A DNA stretch of 64,000 bases from assembly GCF_020921035.1 (NCBI RefSeq), contig NC_063156.1:1612001-1676000 (forward strand). The letters are read 5' to 3'. Source of the DNA: Rhodamnia argentea. Taxonomy: Eukaryota; Streptophyta; Magnoliopsida; Myrtales; Myrtaceae. The position numbers were made by a program, and so were the translations under genes. The notes under the pieces were generated by a model that was not told the origin of the DNA, made no database searches, and worked only from the letters and a program-made list of their open reading frames with translations. This document shows, one piece after another, positions 16,485 through 63,915 of this stretch; within the stretch, counting starts at the first letter, position 1; the number at the start of each line of letters is the position of its first letter.

Positions 16485-17110
16485 AAATTTCATATAAGAG
16501 CCTGGAATATTCTTTTTATTTCAAATAAGGTCCTTAGACCAAGAGTATTTTAGTAATTACATTTTCCGTATAGTTTTCCTTTCTTTTTTTTCCCTTTTCC
16601 TTTTTTCTTTCTTTTTATCTTTTTTTTGTTTTGTACCTTGGCCGGCCACAAGTGAGGGCTCGCCTCGACTAGGCGGCCATCGGCATTGCGCAAGCTAGCC
16701 CCATTAGATCGGGCGAGGGCCGGCCTCGCCTAGGCTTGCCTAGATGAGGTGAGCCCTCACCCGATTTGGCAAAGGCTGGCCTCACCCCATCAACCATCGG
16801 CCTCACCTGCGACCAGCAAGGACACCCTCTAGTGGCCGGTTCCTTCAAGAAAAAAGAAAAGAAAAGAAAGAAGGAAAATATATTCAAAGTATATAAATGA
16901 TTTGAATATTCTTTATTCGAGCCCTTTTATGAAATAAAAAGAGCACTTTATAGTCCTTGTTTAAAACAAGATTCACTTTAGGCTTTTTATTTAAAATAAG
17001 GTTCACTTTAAGCTCTTGTTTGAAAAAATTAAGGCATTTCATGCCATTATTTGAAATTTTCGCTTTCAAATATTTCACTTGTTCAAATAAGTGAAAATTT
17101 CCAACCAAAA
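16485..17110. repeat. Long-TIR element family C, copy 1
   Basis: The ends carry serial units of TTTCAAATAAGG..CTT and their inverse (ATTTAAAATAAGGTTCACTTTAAGCTCTTGTTTGAAA...). The core is GC-rich (about 16640-16840) with CTTGGCCGGCC, AGGCGAGGCC-like and GGCCTCGCC motifs. The same architecture is found at 28855-29330, 30085-30310, 47112-48650 and 63550-63915. The open frame at 16669-16887 lies in the core and is not a credible gene. Confidence 0.65.
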
Positions 17111-17280: not shown

Positions 17281-20104
17281 ATGCAATTCTTCGGAGGCTC
17301 CGACATCAGCCCGTCGCCGCCTGCGCCGACGGCGGCGGGGCACAATGCGAACGTGATGTACATGTTCAATCGGAACGGCGTGTGCTTGTTCTACCGGGAG
17401 TGGAATCGCCCCCTCCGAACCCTAAATCCCCAACAGGACCACAAGCTCATGTTCGGCCTCCTCTTCTCCCTCAAGTCGCTGACCGCTAAGATGGATCCGA
17501 CCAGGTATTCCCTGCTTAAACTCCGTGTCCGATCTTTCGTTTTCTCTCCATTTGATTCCGGTCCGTCGAATTTGTGGGGAGTTGAATTGCGAATTGCGGA
17601 TGGGGAATCTGCAAAGCATCGAAAATGGTGGCTTTTTATCTGTCTAGGGTAGAATTGTAGATCTTTATGCCTTGTCTTAAGAATGCATATGCTGTCCGGT
17701 TGCTTCATAATCTGCTTGACTTCGATCCCCAAGTCATTGGTCTCTGAACTCTCTCCCAAATGGCTTACTGCGATTAAAAATGTTGGTGAATTTGCTGAAA
17801 TAAATGAACTTTTGAAGACTGTATATTCAATTCAGGCACCATTTGATTGTAATGCGGTTTTTATATTTGGTATTTTACTTGTTCTTTCGCTGAATTTCTG
17901 TTATCTTCATGACTGATCAACTAATCTTTGATTGAAATGTCTAAAAGAAAGCTCACACTGATCTTAGGCGGTTCTACTTTTCAAATTGTAAAGCCGAGTT
18001 CGAGCTCAAAAAAAGAAAATCTAATGCAAGTTGAACCTGTAGTAGAAATTTCAGACAAAATGATATTTGTGTTTCTTATGTTTATGCGCACTCACCAGTT
18101 CTCACATACATGTAACACATTATGATAACTATTGAATAACTCATTAGTTGCACGAGTTAAGCATTGCAAAGCTCGATACTCAACTAAACCTTATTTTTTT
18201 TCTGAGTGGTAACTTAGTCGAGCTCAAGTAGCTCGTGAAGTAGGAGGAATTTCTTGTGCCGCGAGCTTAAAGTTGCAAAAACTATTGTACTGCAAGGTGC
18301 CAAGTATGCAGGAGAAGATACTGAAGAACAGGATGATCAGTGATTAACTTACGCACTCTCTGTTTTTTCTGCTTGCAGTGCAGACAAAGGAAATCTTGGG
18401 GTGCCCCAGTTACCAGGCCAGGGCTGTTCATTTCACAGTTTCCGCACTAACACATACAAGCTTAGTTTCATGGAAAGTCCTTCTGGTATAAAGGTTAGTT
18501 AGACTAATTCTGCAGTTTTTGGATTCTATTTTTTTTTGTATTTCTACCTCAGATGTTGCTTAAAACGAGCTTTTGCTCGAAAACTTCAATAGTCTTAGCA
18601 GATTAGCAAGACCTGTTGAACTGAGCATTATTAAGGAACTTACACCTCTTCTGATGATAATTTATCTAAAACCCCAAACTGGTACACTTGTGATAAATTT
18701 GCCATAAACTATTTTTTTGACCAAGAAAAATCCCAAACTGGTACATTTGTCATAAATTTGCCCCAAACTTTTTTTTCCACAAAAACTCCAAACCGGTACA
18801 CCTGTGACAAATTTAACCCCAATTAGTATGTCTATGACAACTTATCCTCCGTTAGTTTCTGTTAAATTGAGTTAATACAACAAGAAAAAACCAAATCGAT
18901 ACACCTCTTATGAACAGAGGGTAAAAACCTCAAACTAATTCACCTATCAACCGCCACGTGTCATCTAACTTAGCAATTTAAAGGTAAAATTTTACGGAAA
19001 CTAACGGAGAGTAAATTTGTCACATGTATACTAGTTTGGGGTAAATTTGTCGCATGTGTATCGGTTAGGAGTTTTTCGAGGTCAAAAAAAATAATTTGGG
19101 ATAAATTTGTCACGGGTGTACTAGTTTGGGATTTTTCGTGGTATTAGCCCTTTATCTAAAGGCACCACACAATTAGAAGGTGGTTGTGGTTCCTTGATCA
19201 CATAATACAACAGAAAAATGGTTTGCTCATGTTAACTTCTATTCTTTGGGCATCAACTACTTAATATTGATGCTTGGTAAAGAAAAATGAATTTGTTGAG
19301 AATTGCATTGCCGCATCATCTTACTTTTTATCAGTGTTAAGGATTTTCCCTATGCTTGTATCGCTTGCAATTCAGCAAATATACTAATTTGAATGCATTC
19401 TTGGATCAGTTCTTTGCCCATTGTTGTACTTCTCTTTGTAAAAATCTTAGCAACCATCAATCTGCCTATTCTTTATTCTTTTTCGTCTTATGCCCGATGC
19501 CTTTGCAGATAATCTTGGTTACACATCCTAGGACCGGTGATCTACGGGAAGCTCTGAAGTACATATACAGTCTATACGTTGAATATGTGACTAAAAACCC
19601 TGTCTACGCTCCAGGATCTCCTATCAGGTGACTGATGAACTTTTGTTGGTTTAAACTGGTTGATTAGATTCCGACCAAAAAAAAAAAAAGAAAGAAAAAA
19701 GAACTGGTTGATTAAATGGCATGTCAATTTTGACGATCTATTATTCAAATAGTGTGCTATAGTGGACCAAAATAGTCCGATTGTTTGCTAGAAATAACTT
19801 TGTTACAATCCTCAATTATATTTTTTCATCATTTGGACACGGAATCCTGCACTGTCCCAGTGCTTTATATCTGGGTCGTCAGTTTTGGCACCTACCTTGC
19901 ATCTTTTTTATATGAGTTCTTCTATGGACATAAGATTAGGAATTTGAGATAAAGACAATTTGTCTTGACTGTTGCTTCTCTCTGAGAGTTGTATTCGCAT
20001 GACTGCCGAAGCTGTTCTCTCTCCTGACACTTTTTCTTGTCTTTCTGTGAAGGTGTGACCTTTTCAATACAAATCTTGACCAATATGTAAGGAGCATTTC
20101 CTAA
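17281..20104 (+). CDS. TRAPPC1 / BET5, TRAPP tethering complex subunit
   Basis: Exons 17281-17504, 18379-18493, 19509-19627 and 20053-20104 give 169 residues ending in DQYVRSIS. The protein is a longin-fold subunit of the TRAPP complexes, the guanine-nucleotide exchange factors for Rab1/Ypt1-type GTPases that tether vesicles at the Golgi. Clear family stretches are MQFFGG, FNRNGVCLFYREWNRPL, LNPQQDHKLMFGLLFSLKSL, LGVPQLPGQGCSFHSFRTNT, YKLSFMESPSGIK, IILVTHPRTGDLREALKYIY and YVTKNPVYAPGSPI. Length and sequence agree with Arabidopsis At1g51160. Start is the first ATG before MQFFGG; a longer upstream frame has no similarity. Intron 2 holds a family A element and intron 3 a poly(A) micro-insertion, neither touching a splice site. 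Confidence 0.95.
18661..19160. repeat. Long-TIR element family A, copy 2, in TRAPPC1 intron 2
   Basis: The element occupies 18671-19150 and is flanked by the direct repeat TTTATCTAAA (18661-18670 and 19151-19160). Left units ACCCCAAACTGGTACACTTG and TGATAAATTTGCC face inverted right units GGATAAATTTGTCAC and GTGTACTAGTTTGGGATTTTT. The centre contains TCCGTTAGTTTCTGTTAAATT opposed by TTTTACGGAAACTAACGGA. A 9-10-bp target duplication with long inverted ends is most like a non-autonomous Mutator-type element. Confidence 0.75.
19654..19714 (+). mobile_element. 35-bp GACC-poly(A) micro-insertion with 13-bp target-site duplication
   Basis: AACTGGTTGATTA at 19654-19666 is repeated exactly at 19702-19714. 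The inserted 35 bases are GATTCCGACC followed by an A-rich tail with a few G residues. It lies in TRAPPC1 intron 3. This matches the 3' end of the LINE at 31.9-36.7 kb (TTTGGACC plus A run) and looks like target-primed reverse transcription that stopped almost at once. Confidence 0.8.
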
Positions 20105-47111: not shown

Positions 47112-48650
47112 TAGGGAAAATTTCAAAAAATGGCTCGAAGTACCATCGTTTTCTCAAATAAGGGCTTGAAGTGGAATTTGTTTCAAATAAGGGTTTGAAG
47201 TACTTAAGTTGTTTCAAAAAAGGGCCTAACTGAAAGACATTTTTATTCTTTACTTTTTTAATTTTTTTTATATTTTTCTTTTTACCTTTTCTTTCTGTTT
47301 TTCCCCTCCCCCTCTCCTCTTGTTCATCTCCCCCCGCATGTCTTCTTCGTGGGGAGGTTGTCGAAGACCAACCCCAATGCCTTTACCTGTCGGAGCCACC
47401 TTCTTTCCCGGTCGACGCTGGTCACCATGGCCACCCTCGCTTAGGCCAGCGTTGGGCGAGGGGCCCTCGCCTTGTTGGTGACGATGAAAGACACCGGCAT
47501 TAGAACTCACTTTGCTGGTGACGAAGGATGCTGAAGGCGGCGGAATCATGGTGGAGGATGCTATGGATTGCAATCGCAGTTTGAGCTAATGTAGTGTCAT
47601 GGAGAGAGACGAAATAGAGGCGTCGGGATGGGATTTGGGGAAATGAGATCGTGAGATGGAGAGGAGAAGAAGGATTTGTACTCGTGCTCGAATCTGCAAC
47701 TTCTTTGCTTTATCTATTTTCCTTTTTTTGTGTCTGAAAATTGGGATGGATCATGTAACGGTCCGACCAGATGACTTGGGCCTGACCATACTGGGATGGA
47801 CGACAAAAGTTGCGTCTGGGTGGAAGGCGCCAACGAGGGCTGTGCGATGACGACCAAAGAAAGAGTCCCATGGCGTTGTTGGTGAAAAGCAACTGGAGGG
47901 AGTCCCGTTGCTCACCCATGCACCATCCTCGACGGAGTTTCGACCTACTGCTATCATTGCCACTCACTGTAGAGCCGGTCCGGCCCGTCCTCTCTCGTTT
48001 TTTTTAGCTAAGAAACTAGGGGGCTCGGTGGCAAAGTTGAGCGAGATGAAAGACAGAGCAAAAGCTCCGGTGTTGGTCGCGAAGCAAGGATTGCGGTTGG
48101 AGGTGGTGTCGTTATTCGGCAGCAAGTAACCTTGTGGTTCATATGGGTCACCGGGATCCGTCATAGCAGTTTAGTCGGCATAGAGCAGCCAGTAGAGCCC
48201 CATGTTGAGGACGACAGCGGTGGCGAAGCGAATAGAGTTTCACAACGCCCGGGCAGCGACTAGGAGGTTTCGATCTTGCCGGATCTGATCAAGATGTTGG
48301 CGGCAGCACAGACGACACCACTCGTTTGTGGACGTGGTGATCGGCATCAATTGCGAGAGAAGGAGGCTCCGATAGGTGAAGGTGTTGGTGTAGGTCTTTC
48401 GGCGACATCCTCACGAAAAAGATGTGCTGGGGGAGATGATGAGCATGAGGGAAGAGGAAAAAAAAAGGCAAATAGATAAACATTAAAAAAATCAAAAAAT
48501 TAAAAGACAAAAATACCCTTTAACTAAGCCCTTTTTTGAAACAATTTGAACACTTCAAGCTCTTATTTGAAACAAGATTTACTTCATGCTTTTATTTGAA
48601 AAAATAATGTCACTTTGAGCCCTTTTTTGAAATTTTCCCTTTGAGTTATT
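47112..48650. repeat. Long-TIR element family C, 1.5-kb copy
   Basis: Left arm: TCAAATAAGGGCTTGAAGTGG, TTTCAAATAAGGGTTTGAAG, TTTCAAAAAAGGGCC. Right arm inverts it: GGCCC/GCCCTTTTTTGAAAC, CACTTCAAGCTCTTATTTGAAAC and TTTGAGCCCTTTTTTGAAATTTTCCC. The 1.2-kb core is GC-rich, with unrelated-looking frames on both strands (for example 47268-47573 and 47710-47967) that do not read as known proteins. This is the longest member of the family here and may have captured host DNA. Confidence 0.65.
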
Positions 48651-49278: not shown

Positions 49279-52200
49279 CTAGGATGTAGTAGCTCTGGGA
49301 TAGGCCCATAACTTGGAGACCGACTGATCATCCAAATCACTATCATCATCGTCGCTATCCCAAGAACAGAAATCATCGAGCAGATAATCAACCACCTGAA
49401 AGAAGATGTACGCACAACATTAGCATCTCCATCGTAGTAGTTCATACTATAGTATAGATGCAAGACCAAGAAGTTAAGAAGAATCTGGAAGCAAGGCCAA
49501 GGAAGCAAATTACATTAATAACTAATCGTTAGAGGCCATCCCCACAGGCCCATATAGCCGGTGGTGCAAAATCTCTTTCAGAAACTCACTTTTAAGGAAC
49601 ACCTCAGCATAGTTTATCCATGAGCGAAACTTTCCCATCTTTTTTTGCCTGTTACGTTCTTTGCATTTTGGGTACAAATATAGGATGCAGGACAACAGCA
49701 ACTATTTGAGAAGTGCAATGCTTCAATCATAAGGAGGAGGAGCAAATATTTTAACAGGTATCACTACTGATAATGAGACATCAAAAGAGATTCAAGGCTC
49801 GGGGATGTGTCAAAAATTTGAGAAGCACCTTGATGCAGAAGAATGGAGTTTTTTTGCCAAAATAGGTGTAAAAAAAAAAAAAAAATTTACCAATTTAGGT
49901 TAAAAAAAAACATTTACCAAAATGGGTGTCGCACAGTGATCAAGATGCCGCGCAACACTCATTCTGCACTTTGGGTGCCGAATGAGGCCCCGTACTGTCG
50001 ATTTTTTTTTTTGTTACGTTTTTTAATTATTGATAGTTACATCACTTATTTTATTTATAATTTTTTTATTTTGAACCTTATTTTTGTAACATAATTATCG
50101 ATAATTAATTAAAAAATTTATTAAGATATATAATTAATAAATAATTTTATATTTATGTAATTAATTATAAATATTCATAAAATAAAACTGATGAAATATA
50201 TGAAAAACATGAAATTTTCATAATATATAACAATCGTCAACCGTAATTACATTTATTAATAATATCGTCCTTCTACATGATATTCCGTTCCGCAATCGGG
50301 TTGTTTTCGTTGTATAGCACATCTAGTATTGTACCGAGAACAAGAACGAGGATCCGGATGAGTAGGACGTGTAGATGACGAAGGCATCTCTTATGATGTG
50401 GATGCATCGTCAAAGTGAGAAAATATGCCATGCTCGGACGGTACATATCCTACTATAGGAGGGCGTGAAAAAATAGGATCCATATGAAAGTCGGAAATTA
50501 ACCGGAGTCTGCAAATGTTGATTGTCATGAAATTGAAAAGCGAATCCCCTGTGAAATGGGCTGGCAAACAGGGTCAACCTTGGATTGAAATTTGCCTGGC
50601 TAAATCGCAGAGTGAAATATGTGGTATGATATTCTAAGGGGTAGGAGACAACATCACCAACTGGATGAGCTCGAGTAATCATTCGGGTTGGCTGACCAAT
50701 CTCAAATAAATCACTCTCGTGAGGCCTACGAAGTTCTGCTATAGTTGCTGGTCGGGATGGTGGCGTCATTGTTAACCGCCTCTCCTCATTCCGTGAGTAT
50801 AGCATTGCCATAGCTATCCTCCCCATAGCCGCCTAGGCTTGAGGAGATGAAGTGGCGAAACTTGTCATATTTAAGATTTGTTCGATACCATCATCTTGGT
50901 AATGATATCAAAATTAACAAAAATTATAAAATGTCAATAATTTATGATAATAAAAAATAATTAATAAATTAAATTGACAATATTTACACGAACCGTTACA
51001 CCCATTGCAACTCCTTTCATAGAAATCCATCTACATGTATGTCTATGGTACCAATCTATATATCCCGCATGATAGTAAAATAACTCCGTTGCGGGATCCC
51101 CATGGACTATATAATCGACATGATTGTCCCACATATCAATCTACCGTCCGTACTTATCTACCCAATCTCTCACAACTAGCCTTAATTTAATATCATGAAA
51201 AGAGTAGGTATTACCCGTTGCATACCAAATCGGCGAAGTGCTCCGTCCGAATAATGCTACTCAATTTTTAAAAACAGATGAGAGGGACACGAGACGGTGG
51301 ATTGATATGTGGGATAGTCATGTCGATTATATAGTTCACGATGATCTTGCAACGGAGCCACTTCACTATCATTCGAGATATATAGAGTGGTACCGTAGAC
51401 ATATATGGAGGTGGATTTCTATAAAGGAAGCCGCAATGGGTGCAACGATTTGTACAAACACTTTCAATTTAATTCATTAATTATTTTTTAGTAACTAAAT
51501 TATTGGCATTTGATAACTTTTGTTAATTTTGATATCATTAAGGGTGATGACATCGAACAAATCGAACATATGACGGATTCCGTCGCTCCATCTTGTTAGG
51601 CCCGAGTAGCTATGGAAAAGATAGCTAGGACAATATTATACGCCCAAAATGAGAAGAGACGGTTAACAATGCCGTTATCACCCCACCAAGAACTATAGCA
51701 GCACCCATTAGGCCCCACGAGAATTATCCACCTGAAACTGCTCGGCCAACCCGAAAGACCACTCAAGCTCATCCAGTTGGTGATGCCGTCCTCTATCCCT
51801 TGGAATATCATATAACGGATTTCATTCAGGGGTTCGCTCCAATGTTCGATCAGGCAAATTCCAATCCAGGGTTCACCCGGTTTGTCGGCCTATTTCACGG
51901 GGAATCCGCTTTTCAATTTCGTGACAATCAATGACCGCAAACTCTAACTACTTTTCCGATTTCATATGGATCCGATTTTTCTTCTCTTTTCCCATGCCAT
52001 CCTACAATAGGATATATACCGTCCGAGCGTGGCATAATTTCTCACTTTGATGATGCATCCACATCACAAGATATGCTTTCGTCATCTACACACCCTACTC
52101 ATCCGGATCCTCGTCTTCGTTCTCAATACAATACTAAACCCGCCGAATGACGAAGACGACCTGATTGCGGAACAGGAGGTCATGTAAGAGGACAATATCA

Positions 52201-54564
52201 TTAGTAGATATAATTGCGGTTGACGATTGTTATCTATTATGAAAATCTCATATTTTTCATATATCTTACAAATTTTATTTTACGAATTTTTTAATTAATT
52301 ACATAAATATAAAATTATTTATTAATTATATATCTTAATAATTTTTTTAATTATTTATTGATAATTATGTTAAAAAATAAGGTTCAAAAGAAAAAATTAT
52401 AAATAAAATAAAGGTTATAACTATCAATAATTAAAAAACGTAACAAAAATATGAAAAAAAAAAAATCGTCGAGACGCTGCCGAATGAGCATTCGGCAATT
52501 GGACCGCCGAACGAGGCCGGTTTGGCACCCAAAGTGCCAACAGGTGTCTCGCGGCATCTTAACTGCTATGCGACACCCATTTTGGAAATTTTTTTTTATC
52601 TAAATTGGTAAATTATTTTTTTTTACACCTATTTTGGAAAAAAAACCCAGAAGAATGTCTATGGAAGAGTTACCTGTTGGGGTGACACAGGCTTAATTTC
52701 ATTATTGCTCGATTTAGCTCCCCCATGGTTTGAGCAATTGATACCATTGAGCCAAACGACAGTCCTGCAATGCTTACAATATCCTCTCTCGCAGATTATA
52801 TTCCTCCCTGAACTGGCTGCATACATACCATTATAAAAAAGTGAGAAGGGCATGAAAGATCAGCAAGTTCCCAAACCAGGATCGGCAAAGCTCAAAAAAC
52901 TCGCTGCATGCCATATAACCCATAGGCTGTGCATCGAGTTTATTTGCAGCAATTAGATAATATTGTACAGGAACAACAATCAATTTTCCATATCAGGTTT
53001 GCGTGCAGCTTGAAGCATGCAAACTATTACTTTTCCATCCAGAAAATTTCGAACGTAATGTACCCATCACCACAACAAACAAACCAAATGCATCTGATGC
53101 ACGTGCATTGGAACTTCATAAGCTAGCAGAACAGTTATACCTATATATGATCTTTTAAAGGCCTCCCTCCAGTCAATATAGGGCATAGCTGTTCCCTTGG
53201 GCGTAGGTGTTTCTTGCCGATCATGGTACAGTGACTTATTTTGCTGATGATTGGTTTTCAAACTATTATCAGCACGAGGGAAAACTCTTGTATAATAAGA
53301 GTGCCAGAGAGAGTTATCACTCGCAGCGTAATTCCATGACCTTCAATTAAAAAATTCAAAGAGAAGATTAATAAGCAAAACCATACTTCCTGAAAAGTCT
53401 AACAACCTGACACGCAATGGACTTTCCAACTATATTGCGTACTTAGTAAGAATTGGCAAACAGAATAGAACTTTACCAGCAGACAAGCAGGGCAGCCATC
53501 AGAGATGAAAAATCTAGGTAACCGAAGATATGCAGGAGAACGTCTTGTGGTAGCTGGGAAGATTCTGAAACATGGAGAAAGTAATGAATAGTCACTTTCT
53601 GTGTAAAATGGTTGGAGAATATACATGACTAAGATGAAAACAACCTTTTTCTTCCTGCCGTGTTTTGCATTGCTTCTTATGAGCAATTTTTGCATGTTTG
53701 AATTCTGTCAGAACCATATTCTTCTTCTGCTTTGGCAAAGCAGCAGCCACAGCCTGAGCAAGCAAAGTAGCTGATAAGACAGCACTCTGCGTCTTCATTC
53801 TAGCGTGGAATTGAGCACAGCACAGCAATCAAACAACTCAAAACTCGATGAATAGGAAGTATATTTTGAGAATGTCAAAACACCCGCTTCTCGAATAAAT
53901 TAAAAAACTCAGACTTGACATCAGGCATGGAGGCTCGGAGCTAACCATTAACTTCTTCATCTACTTTTAAGAACTACGGGTGAGTTCATCGAACTAAATG
54001 AAAGGTGATAATCAAAGGGGAAATAAAACAGCTTTTTCGGGGAATTTCTATTTGAATGCATGAACTTTCTTATTCCTCATCTGGTTAGCTCAACTCCTAA
54101 ACCCTAACACGATGGCTGTATGGGATGTTCATCAGCAGTTGGAAATCGCCATGCTTCACATAAAACGTGAGGCCAACCTCAGATATCGAACAGCATATGA
54201 CAAAGCCAGACAGACAACCAATTGCTTTCACATGATTTGACGCTGAAAAACTGCATCCCTAACCTCTGAACTGATCAATCGATTCTCATATAGGAAGACA
54301 ATCAAATCGATCGAGAATCGCATGCCACAGCGGACAGAAATCATCGAATGCCAAACCAAAGCCCTAAGGGAGGACTTACTCGGGAAGGAGACGAAAGGCG
54401 GCGAGGGTGTCGTCAAGGACGGTGGACTTGAGATTCTTGGGGAGCTCATGATAAGCGGCTCTGAGAATGAAGCTGAGCTCCTTGCAGGTAATTGGGTATC
54501 GGTGGACTCTGGGTAACGATTCCCTCATGCCCAGCTTCTGGTATCTCTCGACGGTGCTGGACAT
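49279..54564 (-). CDS. F-box protein, At5g52880-like
   Basis: Exons 54564-54380, 53799-53645, 53564-53477, 53340-53141, 52816-52674 and 49395-49279 join in frame to 295 residues. F-box proteins recruit substrates to SCF ubiquitin ligases; targets of this one are unknown. The N-terminus has VERYQKLGMRESLPRVHRYP, followed by LPKQKKNMVLTEFKHAKIAHKK. The F-box starts near residue 114 (LPQDVLLHIFGYLDFSSLMAA..VC.SWN). Further on are the tryptophan-rich IDWREAFKRSY, a possible zinc-binding CERGYCKHCRTVVWLNGINC, an acidic WDSDDDSDLDDQ and the C-terminal SKLWAYPR that identify the At5g52880 type. The position usually Arg in VCRSWN-type motifs is Trp here. The last intron (49396-52673) carries a 2.8-kb Mutator-like palindrome whose edge is only about 16 bases from the exon 5 donor plus its duplicated target. 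I chose the second possible ATG (54564) because homology begins there; an upstream ATG at 54678 would add 38 residues. Confidence 0.9.
49837..52657. mobile_element. Palindromic Mutator-like element with plant-mobile-domain (PMD) sequence in both arms
   Basis: The element (49846-52648, 2.80 kb) is flanked by the 9-bp direct repeat AGAAGAATG (49837-49845, 52649-52657), typical of Mutator. Its ends are inverted: GAGTTTTTTTGCCAAAATAG left, and GGGTTTTTTTTCCAAAATAG read from the right. Inversion then continues through the whole element: the left arm 49846-51148 pairs with the right arm 51293-52648, leaving about 145 bases unpaired. Shared landmarks in opposite orientation include AAAATGGGTGTCGCA, GTTACGTTTTTTAATTATTG, ACAATCGTCAACCG, GAATTGAAAAGCGAATCCCC-like and CTATATAATCGACATGA. 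The right arm still reads WIDMWDSHVDYIVHDDLATE and EWYRRHIWRWIS, the pattern of PMD proteins carried by some plant Mutator-like elements. By eye the arms differ by about one base in ten, plus indels. No transposase (mudrA) is present. Confidence 0.85.
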
Positions 54565-54882
54565 CGTTCTTCTTTCGTTGCACTGCTCGCATTCACCAAT
54601 TGAAGGTATCAATACTCTCATTTGCAGAGGATTTGCCGAGGAACGAGCCATGGCCGCTTTAAACAGGTTCGCTGCCAATCAGGTGATTGGGAACGGAGTT
54701 ACGAAAATCAGATCGAATCGAACCGGATTCAATGTTAGGCCGGTCTTATGCCGGTCTTCCATACCATCGAGGTCGGTTCAACCGTGCACCTTATTCAATT
54801 TTCTGTCCGGTTCCATAACCTTGGAATGTTTAAGGAGACTCAAAACATGGGACGTATCGAATCTCAAAATGGGAAGGGTCGA

Positions 54883-56335: not shown

Positions 56336-59300
56336 CTAAAGGAAGTATGTCAGCTGCTGCTTCTTCCGAGAACCTCCTTCGCCGTACAGATCATTCCACT
56401 GCTTAAGTTCAGCCATCACAGATCCTTCAGATGCGAAGCTTGCAGCGACCTGCATTAACATTTCCGAAGTAGACAATGTTAAGCATTGGATGTCATTTAC
56501 ATTCACGGTCATCCCATAAGAACCCAATGACTGTTGCAAGAGAAGTTTTGAGGAAAGAAAACCTTGTCTTACAGCTTAACAGGAGCATAGAAGATGGAAA
56601 AAAGGAGATTCAGTTACCTGACTCTTTGCCTGCCTCAAGTCTTCCATACTCAAGGGCCTTAATGCAATTACTTCCTCGTCCTTGCTCTCTTCATTTTCTT
56701 CATTCGTGCTGGGGGCTTCTTCTGAGCTCTCGCCTTCTTCAGCTCTTCGCTTTCTTTCCTGTGGGCATATTTTCAACAAAATTTTCACAAGACATTGTCA
56801 CGGTCACTGCAAGAACAAAAGACAAAATAAAACATGACCACTCAAAAGATGATAAGCATACAGAGAGAATTTACCAGATTTTTCTGTCTTTCCTCCTGAA
56901 TCAGATCTCTAACAGGACGATATGCTGCAGTCACGCACAAGTTCTGTTTCCAGCAATCAACGGCAAGATGTAATCAGCGGTCAGAACCAATAATTGAGGA
57001 TATTGAATTCATTATCCGTTCCTGTACTTATAATTATAGGCAAACCTTAAGATCGCTTCCACTGTAGCCTTCTGTCATAGCTGCAAGCTCTTTATAATCG
57101 AGATCTGCCACTATCTCCTTCGCCAGAAGAGTCTTCATGATCATTTCCCTGCTCTCAATAGATGGTAGACCAACCATAATCCTGCGCAAATGACGAACAA
57201 GTTGACCTCGTGAATGTGAATCTCAGCAATATTGACCCACAAATTTTACCCAAACTGAGAAAGTGTACGGACGTGATTTCAACACAATGCAACATACCTG
57301 CGCTCAAACCGCCTGATGATAGCTTCATCAAGGTCAAAAGGCCTATTGGTTGCTGCAAGAACCAAAATACGTTCGCCAGATTTTGTCAAAAGCCCATCCC
57401 AATGCGTCATGAATTCGTTTTTTATCTTCCGCATGGCTTCATGCTCTCCAACTCGGGTCCTTTGCCCAAGCATGCTATCCACCTCGTCCACAAAGATGAT
57501 GGTGGGCGAAACCTTCGCTGCCAGCGTAAAAAGCGCTCGCACATTCTTTTCATCTTCCCCGAACCATTTCGAAGTAATGGTGGACATGGAGACATTGATA
57601 AAACTTGCTCCGGCTTCATTTGCAATGGCCTTTGCCAGCATCGTCTTGCCAGTACCCGGGGGTCCAAAAAGCAGTATACCTCTGCAAGGCTTCAGAAGCC
57701 CACCTTTGAAGAGGTCTGGTCTTCGGAGTGGGAGCATGACTAACTCTTGAAGCGATTCCTTAGTCTCATCCATAGCACCAATGTCCGCGAATGTTACTCC
57801 AATCTCACTCGCTGGAATAACCTCAGGCCTTATCCGCTTCTCGAATTCATTATCAGGGGGAACTTCCTGTTCAAAGATTGTAATTCCCGCTTGTTTACTT
57901 ATATATGTCGACATGTAGAGAAGGTAAATGCCAGTGGTGCACATTGATTGCCCCACTTCAAGCACATAGTGAGATAAGATTATGGTTAAGCACCTTAATG
58001 CATTGAGGTAAAGAAATACTGAACACTTTGAAGCAAGGCCATTTGAGAAGGCCACATTTTTGTCATATTAGGCAAAGCAAAGCTGCAAAAGGGGCTACTT
58101 CCCAGGTAAGAATTGAAGAACCAACTTTTTGTTATACTCTATGACAAATAGCCCCTTAGCCACAAGCAAAATAACAACTGCTGAAACTTGAAATAGCTTG
58201 GTAATCCTAATTCTTCGTGAATGCACTAAGTCTCGTGATGGAATCAAAATCTAAGACCTAACTCCCACCAATTCCGTTCTCCTTTTACAACTATCTATAT
58301 AAATCAGACTTACCGGCGCTTTTGATGGAGGGGGATTATCTCCATCCTTCTTTCCTGCAGAAGCTGACTTGTCCGTCTCACTCTTGGTTTCAGGTGCAGA
58401 GTTATCAGGCTTTGAATCAGTTTTTGCGCTGATAGCTTCTTCATTTTCCTGAAAAAAACGAAAAAGGTAACATGATTGAATAAACCTGTAGGGTTAAGGA
58501 TTGGGTCTTCTTTGCCCACTTTCGGAATTTGTGGTACCAAAATGAGGCCCACCTTTGAAGACTCAGAATTTTGCTCCAGCTTTAGAGTGTCTTTGTCACC
58601 ACTTTTGCCCTCCTCAAATATATTTAACCCATGGGACAAACTGTGATAAAAACAAGAATGTTAAACTTCTCAATCTTTCTACTGGGAAAGAAAGGAGAGG
58701 TTTGATAACCAGATTGCACAAAAAAGAAAGGGTTAGGTAATCGCTCTAAAGATAGTCAAAGAAGATAGAGACCTCTTGGAAGATATGACAAGCTTCCCAT
58801 TACGGTATTCTGGTTCCTTGTTATTCATAAGATGGTACGATAAGGCGGATACCACAATCTCTTCAATATAATTGCTTAGGACCATCGTGTCTGAATGGCA
58901 GATTGATCCCAGATCCTCGCAGATGATATCATTTTCTGCTAGAACCTCGGCAATGTGGTTCCTGTTATCCTGGACCTGAAGCATCTTCATATCCTCTTCC
59001 AATTGAGCTTTCCAGCTGACAAGATTAGTCTCATCTTCAGGTGGTCGGATTACAATGTTGTATGGGAACAAAAGACTGAGCCTCTCATCAACTTCTATAT
59101 AGTCATCATCTGTGTCCAGCTTACGAGAACCAAGTATTAGAACTGCTCCTGACAGTTTCTGCACCATCCTATGGAACAACTTTTGCAACCGTTCTGACTG
59201 GAGAAGAAGCTTCTCCGCATCTCTGAGGTACAGAATGATAGGAGTGGTTTCTGATACCGAAACCAAAACCTATATAAAAAATGATAGTGTTTCTGTCAAT

Positions 59301-62611: not shown

Positions 62612-63549
62612 ACCTGCCGATCAGAAAACGACAACGACAACCCCCTCTTACGAAAGCTTCTCGCTTTCACCGCCCACCAACCAATACACCCCAGAAACGG
62701 AAGTGGAGAGAAGGAAAAACACAATCTTGGAGCGAGAAAACGAAGACCCACGATCCAGAAGCGAAGGCTTTTGAACGGTGCTATTGAGGGATTTGCTTTA
62801 ATTGCGCCATCATTGACAAGGGGACGAAAAGCGGGACAAGGATATCCAGGGATTCTTCTTCGGGCGAAAATGAAATATGGGGAGCGATTCAAGGAATCAG
62901 AGAGAGAGAGAGAGAGGAAGGGATTGGTGGGTGCGGAATGCAATGAATATTTTTCCACTCTGTTTCCTTTTGTTTTCAGAGAGAAATGGAGAAATGGGTG
63001 TTGGGTATATATGTCCGAATGAAACGCACAGTGAACGACGGTGGGTTTGGTATTTGGTTGACAGGTAAAAATGGGGACTTTGGCGGGGGAGGGGGGTGGG
63101 GGAGGAAGACTATTTATAGTGATCTGTGATTGGTTGAAATTGAGTGCCGCCGTGGGGACTTTTCTTTGATTTTTCTCGTTCTTCTCTTTTTGACTCACCG
63201 GTTACCTCTTCTCCCCGTTTTCTCTTCCTTCTTCTCCTTTCTTTTTCTCTTCCTTCTTTCTTTTTTCCTTTTTCTTTTTCTTCCTTCTTTCTTCTTTCTA
63301 TTTTTTCCTTTTTCCAACTTCGATCCTTCAAAGCTTGAGTCCATGAAATGCTCCGCTAGCCGAAATATAAACGGTTGATCCCCAGTATACAATTATCTTG
63401 ATATATTTCGATCACATAAACGATACATTTCGCAGCTTACCGAGAACTACAACGAGATGCGTTCCACGTACTTTAAGACATAGAATTGAACATGCATTGC
63501 GCATTAGAATTCTGATATTGATGTGTGTGGTCTTTGGACATTAAAGAAG
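62612..63549. other. AAA gene 5' UTR and upstream region
   Basis: On the minus strand this is the leader and promoter side. It contains a GA microsatellite (about 62899-62916) and a long pyrimidine-rich tract (63180-63320). The open frames here are low-complexity products of those tracts. No TATA box was assigned. Confidence 0.5.
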
Positions 63550-63915
63550 ATTTCAAATAAAAGTTCGAAGTGCATTCATTTTCTCGGATAAGCGCATATA
63601 ATGGATCTTATTTCAAATAAGAGCATGAAATGTCCTTATTATTTCAAAGAATGGCTTGGAAGAAGGGCATTTTCGTCCTTTATGTTTTTAATTTTTTTTT
63701 TTTTGTATTTCTTTCCAACCATCGCCCGATAGCTAGGATGGCTTGGAAAGGGCCAGAGGAAAAAGAAAAATAAAATAGAACAGAAAAAGAAAAAAATAAA
63801 TAAATATACAAATGATGAAAATTCCCTTCATATAGGTGCTTCTTTGAAATAACCAAGGCACTTCAGGCTCTTATTTAAGAAGACGAGAGCACTTCATGCA
63901 CTTGTTGAAAATTTT
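63550..63915. repeat. Long-TIR element family C, copy 5
   Basis: The left arm has GATTTCAAATAAAAGTTCGAAG and TTTCAAATAAGAGCATGAAATG. The right arm inverts these (CACTTCAGGCTCTTATTTAAG, GAGCACTTCATGCACTTG). The core is short (about 63690-63780) with CGCCCGATAGC. The last 85 bases of the window show nothing further. Confidence 0.6.

Follow-up and report, generated by a model that had tools for sequence, protein, structure and literature searches.

Mu killer (Muk) of maize is a well-studied case of a transposon that is silenced by its own rearranged copy, and it raises the question of whether loci of this kind have arisen more than once. Muk is an internally deleted Mutator-like element (MULE) in which both terminal inverted repeats (TIRs) come from the same parental end, and it carries an inverted duplication of approximately 1.3 kb of an element gene (PMC3440606). 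MULEs that carry a plant mobile domain (PMD) gene have been described in flowering plants in the MUDR, MUDRAVI2, MDR and VANDAL groups (PMC6446971).

The window analyzed here, a 64,000-nucleotide stretch of the Rhodamnia argentea genome, contains a real same-end inverted-duplication MULE. As in Mu killer, both TIRs derive from one parental end and an element gene is duplicated in inverted orientation (PMC3440606), so that the likeness to Muk proposed in a sequence-only reading of this DNA extends to the origin of the termini. Muk represents the mudrA end, whereas this element represents the PMD-side end, lies inside the intron of a gene and has arms that are 82% identical; the duplicated gene is PMD, and a partial inverted duplication of a transposase gene of the Mu killer type was not found in it. 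The 9-bp duplications, the SWIM-containing transposase and the PMD gene of its family are those of the PMD-carrying MULEs (PMC6446971), but the folded element lacks a transposase and consists of one end in palindromic form. With the multiple-TIR MULEs it shares the aberrant duplication of an end in a non-autonomous copy, although the TIRs are in tandem in those elements and the whole 1.4-kb end is in inverted duplication here (PMC3310237). PMD sequences are also small-RNA sources in tea (PMC10673657); a hairpin is not known from the tea loci, and at the present element small-RNA production is a possible activity. The features of the locus are as follows.

49279..49395, minus strand: predicted last coding exon of the F-box gene, with the stop codon
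49396..52673, minus strand: last intron of the F-box gene; the GT donor is 15 nt from the duplication and the AG acceptor stands before 49395
49837..49845, no strand: left copy of the target site duplication, AGAAGAATG, a perfect 9-bp match to the right copy
49846..51293, minus strand: left arm, 1448 bp, the PMD-side transposon end; its PMD remnant reads from the centre outwards, and it has 82% homology to L009
49848..49881, plus strand: left outer TIR, 34 bp in length, with 94% complementarity to the right TIR
about 51149..51292, no strand: unpaired centre (loop), formed by the additional inner end that the left arm has; among the straight relatives, L030 and L031 align with it on the strand of the left arm
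51287..51293, no strand: junction microhomology, CACG without interruption, extending to as many as 7 bp if one gap is allowed; both flanking parental sequences match
51294..52648, plus strand: right arm, 1355 bp, in which the PMD-side transposon end occurs a second time; its PMD remnant reads from the centre outwards, and it has 84% homology to L009
52613..52646, minus strand: right outer TIR, which pairs with the left TIR at 49848..49881
52649..52657, no strand: right copy of the target site duplication, AGAAGAATG, a perfect 9-bp match to the left copy
52674..54651, minus strand: predicted coding exons 1 to 5 of the F-box gene (54651-54380, 53799-53645, 53564-53477, 53340-53141 and 52816-52674)

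The element is a Mutator-like insertion of 2803 bp that forms a single unit (49846-52648). The Mutator-type insertion with a 9-bp duplication that had been claimed for it proved correct to the base, with AGAAGAATG on both sides and within the 9-11 bp that are characteristic of Mutator-like elements; the base that follows AGAAGAATG (C) is identical at both copies, so that the duplication may be counted as 9 or 10 bp. Because the duplication flanks the whole element, the palindrome moved into the intron as one unit. Its TIRs are those of transposase-bearing relatives, with ends as in L009, L014 and others, and L009 retains a SWIM domain. A MULE transposase of its own is absent from the folded element, and since the arms comprise nothing beyond the PMD tail and the TIR, the element is non-autonomous. 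Dating of the insertion from the target duplication was uninformative, as the observed 0 of 9 differences between the copies has a probability of 0.16 at arm-level divergence. A Pack-MULE with a captured host gene fragment was ruled out, the PMD gene being the element family's own and present in the straight relatives. An Rfam search of the window at gathering thresholds gave no match to a microRNA precursor or other known RNA family.

The element interrupts the last intron of a minus-strand F-box gene of the At5g52880 type. The conceptual coding sequence, an exon model predicted from the DNA letters only, has six exons and 975 nt and is open throughout, so that the gene appears conceptually intact and the earlier placement of the element in an F-box intron is upheld. 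The last intron measures 3278 nt with the element, versus 466 nt once the element and one copy of the duplication are removed. The gene is the sole copy in the genome, all 4 matches being at the home locus (9 of 9 candidates scored).

In the self-alignment, 49848-51148 paired with 52646-51293 over 1371 columns at 1068 bits, while the best score in 20 mononucleotide shuffles was 33.7 bits. This agrees with the full-length palindrome with arms of about 1.3 kb and a 145-base centre that had been read from the sequence. The loop is about 145 nt long, and the two copies of the transposon end are joined around it inside the PMD gene. Global alignment of the arms (49846-51293 versus 51294-52648) gave 81.7% identity over 1286 aligned bases, with indels extra. 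Palindromes are a known type of assembly artefact. Such an origin is nevertheless extremely improbable here, as a chimeric join would be expected to give near-identical arms with no flanking target duplication, and this locus has 82% arm identity, a flanking duplication and an asymmetric junction. The description as a palindrome of a PMD gene held for the PMD content, but what the arms carry of it is limited to the final part of the PMD domain and the C-terminal tail. None of the four arm ORFs submitted to Pfam drew a PMD call; judged by DNA homology to relatives in which Pfam does call it, the arm sequence is PMD. The junction lies inside the PMD gene and looks microhomology-mediated.

Unfolded relatives are common in the genome, and straight relatives share the entire arm. 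Two whole-arm searches, with 40 of 542 and 40 of 545 candidates scored, yielded 51 distinct loci, the folded element included. The sequence-only reading had suggested a search for an unfolded parent, and four of the straight relatives found (L024, L025, L026 and L028) each have a transposase-type domain and PMD above the Pfam cut-offs, with PMD and the arm-homologous end downstream of the transposase-type domain on the same strand. PMD is thus on the transposase strand in the four relatives checked here, whereas it is often antisense in the table of PMC6446971. The same relatives align with both arms along their length, in each case at the PMD-side end, and both TIRs are therefore from one parental end. 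Target duplications were detected at 4 of the 21 relative loci searched (perfect in L019 and L021, with one mismatch in L009 and L014) and not at the other 17, mostly because one or both ends were unrecognized. Sequence crossing the junction was not found at other loci among the 40 scored of 122 candidates.

Long TIRs are frequent in MULEs and multiple-TIR elements have been described (PMC3310237), and the locus could accordingly be an ordinary MULE or Foldback element from a long-TIR family. This is very unlikely, as none of the 20 relatives fetched at length was palindromic and kilobase arms are not the family norm. Self-inverted ends that coincide with identified termini extend only about 65-130 bp in L009, L010, L014, L019 and L021, while the arms here include coding sequence, and inverted pairs longer than 300 bp were present in 2 of the 20 loci (L013 and L015), outside the arm-homologous part. 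Two other loci with oppositely oriented arm matches were present among the scored candidates of both whole-arm searches. The nearest case, L029 on C3, is a partial same-end foldback with arms of 347 columns at 80%; L032 on C10 has an inverted inner piece with no matching arms.

As a whole, the locus is probably best explained as a non-autonomous same-end MULE palindrome that was inserted as a unit in the F-box intron and is presumably carried as an intronic hairpin with weak dicing today. The PMD-side end of a PMD-carrying transposon would have been duplicated in inverted orientation, which gives both termini the same parental end, with the join made inside the PMD gene through microhomology; the arms would date to about the subfamily radiation, and the complete palindrome would then have transposed into the last F-box intron. 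Both arms fall within one supported 7-row subfamily (98/96) in which the branching order is unresolved. A fusion of two different subfamily copies, through end joining, aberrant transposition of neighboring elements or a similar event, is a credible alternative to the duplication of one end, if somewhat the less probable. It fits the star-like order of the arms in the subfamily, the lack of an excess of derived sites shared by them (6 of 794, 57th of 231 pairs) and their unequal private changes (100 in the left arm versus 69 in the right, p 0.021). However, arms constrained as one clade were not rejected (p-AU 0.39), so that an origin from one parent at the time of the burst fits equally, and regional mutation differences might account for the unequal changes. 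The arms show no sign of having been kept alike, and their decay resembles that of ordinary copies.

In the predicted fold of the host-sense strand, the element forms one hairpin (MFE -1578.7) with 1138 of 1198 pairs made arm to arm and 15 uninterrupted helices of at least 21 bp. Three straight relatives gave MFE values of -726 to -828, and four shuffles gave -596 to -635. The host pre-mRNA would be expected to carry this intronic hairpin as double-stranded RNA, and siRNAs might follow; with arms that are 18% diverged and decayed as neutral copies would be, its dicing into small RNAs against sibling transposons, if it occurs, would be weak at present. An active Mu-killer-like silencer, with the host-transcribed hairpin diced to 21-24-nt RNAs that silence PMD-carrying MULEs in trans, would fit the palindromic structure, the intron position and the predicted fold. 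It would also fit the exact 21-mers that the element has in common with 20 of the 21 fetched relatives (19 of 21 at 25% GC or more), and in tea 175 PHAS loci are at PMD genes (PMC10673657). Silencing by the folded element is possible, but activity of this kind is unlikely, and arms that are only 82% identical count against it. In maize, Skibbe et al. described read-through transcripts from the flanking gene where Mu killer plants failed to silence, and antisense transcripts where silencing took place, so that read-through was not the silencing transcript (PMC3440606).

Two mutational patterns bear on the same reading. Changes that keep G-U pairing favored the host-sense strand (103 versus 75, p 0.043; polarized, 76 versus 51, p 0.033), a borderline bias (p 0.03-0.05) that fits host transcription and that a silencer would predict but that transcription-linked deamination with no hairpin predicts equally. 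Among pairs of other copies, 23 of 380 in the 22-copy set and 13 of 1560 in the 42-copy set had an asymmetry as extreme, a null that varies with the copy set and in which pairs are not independent and few changes are involved. On these grounds the bias does not demonstrate selection for pairing. In terms of CHH transitions, the excess in the arms was spotted after the fact and looked significant among 22 copies (odds ratio 1.86, p 0.011); with 20 further copies added, the arms still ranked 1 and 2 of the 42 in absolute rate at both thresholds tried. However, after normalizing for other changes the excess was weak (depending on the threshold, p 0.14 or 0.027 and ranks of 8 and 13 or of 2 and 17 among the 42), a looser consensus dropped the right arm from the highest copies, and CG and CHG transitions were not raised. 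A CHH mutation scar in the arms is therefore a lead, weak once branch length is allowed for. It is unlikely that the F-box gene acts as a natural intron-hairpin construct, in which each round of host transcription would yield a kilobase PMD-side hairpin and a host gene would thereby supply the genome with small RNAs directed at PMD-carrying MULEs, and the CHH transitions and strand asymmetry would be its mutational scars.

The folded element is a second structure of the Mu killer logic, in another plant and at the PMD end. Its junction has been located, and its straight relatives and host gene are identified; in this genome L029 adds a further, partial case. If the intron-hairpin reading is true, a host gene would drive the supply of small RNAs against PMD-carrying MULEs.

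The self-alignment demonstrated that the two halves of the element at 49846-52648 (2803 bp) pair nearly end to end, over 1371 alignment columns and with a score of 1068 bits, while the best score in 20 shuffles was 33.7 bits. The bounds proposed by the sequence-only reading were borne out, with AGAAGAATG flanking both sides as the target site duplication, as were the two long arms that it had described around a centre of about 145 bases. The left arm, at 1448 bp, is longer than the right arm (1355 bp), and the unpaired centre (~145 nt) results mostly from this length difference. The long inverted match has an identity of 81.7% over 1286 aligned bases in the global alignment; the arms differ at 235 bases (178 transitions and 57 transversions), with indels in addition.

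The insertion lies within a predicted F-box gene, the exons of which are listed below.

Predicted exons of the F-box gene (open frame of 975 nt)
54651-54380, minus strand, first exon
53799-53645, minus strand, second exon
53564-53477, minus strand, third exon
53340-53141, minus strand, fourth exon
52816-52674, minus strand, fifth exon
49395-49279, minus strand, sixth exon

All five introns of this model have GT and AG ends, and in Pfam the predicted protein is matched by At5g52880_ARM (2.4e-38) and F-box-like (5.3e-16). The intronic position claimed earlier holds for the predicted gene. A genome search with an F-box-to-C-terminal query, in which 9 of 9 candidates were scored, gave four exon matches, all at the host locus. 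The element begins 24 nt into the last predicted intron, with 15 nt between the splice donor and the duplication, and this intron measures 3278 nt, or 466 nt if the element is removed. A neighbouring open frame (57279-58067, minus strand) was recognised by eye as resembling an AAA-type ATPase. Just downstream of the F-box gene is an inverted repeat (47113-47434 and 48328-48640) with arms of ~320 bp, 75% alike and ~0.9 kb apart; because similar stretches occur at 63546-63714 and 16952-17080, it is suggested to belong to a dispersed short repeat family. Another inverted repeat, of ~155 bp and 78%, is found at 18720-18868 and 18988-19142.

The search for unfolded parent-type elements, performed in the same genome (346.7 Mb, 74 contigs), was productive and returned many relatives. 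Of these, 20 loci were examined at 9 kb each; in all 20, matches to both arms extend for over 800 bases on a single strand, and no locus is itself a palindrome. Four (L024, L025, L026 and L028) carry a transposase-type domain and a PMD in one locus on the same strand above the curated Pfam cut-offs, the former domain being MULE in three and SWIM in L026. PMD genes are known in MULEs (PMC6446971). Because the arm-homologous end sits downstream of the PMD in such relatives, each arm is the PMD-side end, in which the PMD domain end and its C-terminal tail are followed by intron-like sequence and the TIR. The idea of a palindrome of a PMD gene thus stands as to the derivation of the arms, but not as to a whole gene, as only the domain end and tail are present; Pfam called no PMD in the four arm ORFs submitted, as is expected of short decayed remnants.

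A 201-base query over the centre matched at full length only at the element locus, and the other scored places matched just one side (40 of 122 candidates scored). In the straight relatives L030 and L031, the left-arm sequence continues to 51293 and the right-arm sequence begins at 51287-51288, leaving CACG uninterrupted, or at most 7 letters with one gap, common to both sides. This overlap fits a microhomology-mediated join. The shared letters speak against the separate insertion of two elements, which should have left a duplication at the centre.

A tree built from 22 rows and 1171 columns places both arms in a supported seven-row set (98/96), within which the branching is star-like. Forcing the two arms into a sister pair costs 0.33 log units (p-AU 0.39), and the 6 derived states common to both in 794 sites rank 57th of 231 pairs. 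Private changes number 100 in the left arm versus 69 in the right (1013 sites, p 0.021) and are distributed along the arm length. The arms may come either from one end duplicated during the burst of the subfamily or from two fused sibling copies. L029 (G000:C3:18138000-18140500) is a further same-end foldback of the family, though a partial one, with arms at 618-931 and 1534-1879 (~350 bp, 80%), an interior of ~0.6 kb without match to the arms, and a TIR recognisable on the right but not on the left. Another family copy, L032 (G000:C10:19453400-19455900), has a straight outer part, then an inner piece in inverted orientation (arm positions 1182-1308), and no self-complementary arms. The most similar pair among the 22 rows, L022 and L023 (~0.2 Mb apart on contig C1), would be a recent duplication, since their tip branches are just 0.007-0.008.

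When folded alone, the host-sense strand has a predicted energy of -1578.7 kcal/mol. Of the 1198 pairs in this fold, 1138 run arm to arm, and there are 15 uninterrupted helices of at least 21 bp (longest 50). The predicted values were -1506.3 for the opposite strand, -729.4, -726.4 and -828.0 for straight relatives at equal length, and -596.3 to -634.7 for four shuffles. Putative small RNAs from the element could match sibling copies, because 20 of the 21 relatives fetched have exact 21-mers in common with it (19 of 21 when GC is at least 25%). Active silencing by the element is considered unlikely. Phased small RNAs from PMD genes are reported in tea (175 PHAS loci; PMC10673657), and for the maize silencing locus Mu killer a hairpin via read-through was proposed, sense read-through transcripts being found in plants that fail to silence and antisense transcripts in silencing plants (PMC3440606). 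The same-end layout is similar, being described there for mudrA (PMC3440606) and seen here for the PMD-side end.

Minus-strand transcription, if present, should favour C-to-T changes on the minus strand, because of transcription-linked deamination or the keeping of G-U pairs. The strand counts agree with this direction whether raw (103 vs 75, p 0.043), polarised (76 vs 51, p 0.033), restricted to C-to-T (61 vs 40, p 0.046) or per site (79/403 vs 58/407, p 0.049), these being overlapping measures of one signal; the same difference is reached by 23 of 380 other-copy pairs with 22 copies and by 13 of 1560 with 42 copies. The two arms take the top two places among 42 copies for transitions in CHH context, whichever of the two thresholds is used. 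Once normalised to other changes, this excess has p 0.14 or 0.027, and the arms come 8th and 13th or 2nd and 17th, depending on threshold; with a looser consensus in 22 copies the right arm is outside the highest. CG and CHG changes in the arms are not raised. These mutational signs are a lead, not evidence.

Among the titles and abstract openings listed by searches of a library with few subscription papers, none describes an intronic PMD palindrome, which is not put forward as a claim of absence. In summary, the structure of the element is real and its parts are ordinary, namely a PMD-bearing MULE family, a rearranged copy and an intron insertion. Their combination, a same-end palindrome in an intron of a gene for which the genome search found one locus, gives a variant of the Mu killer type of structure.
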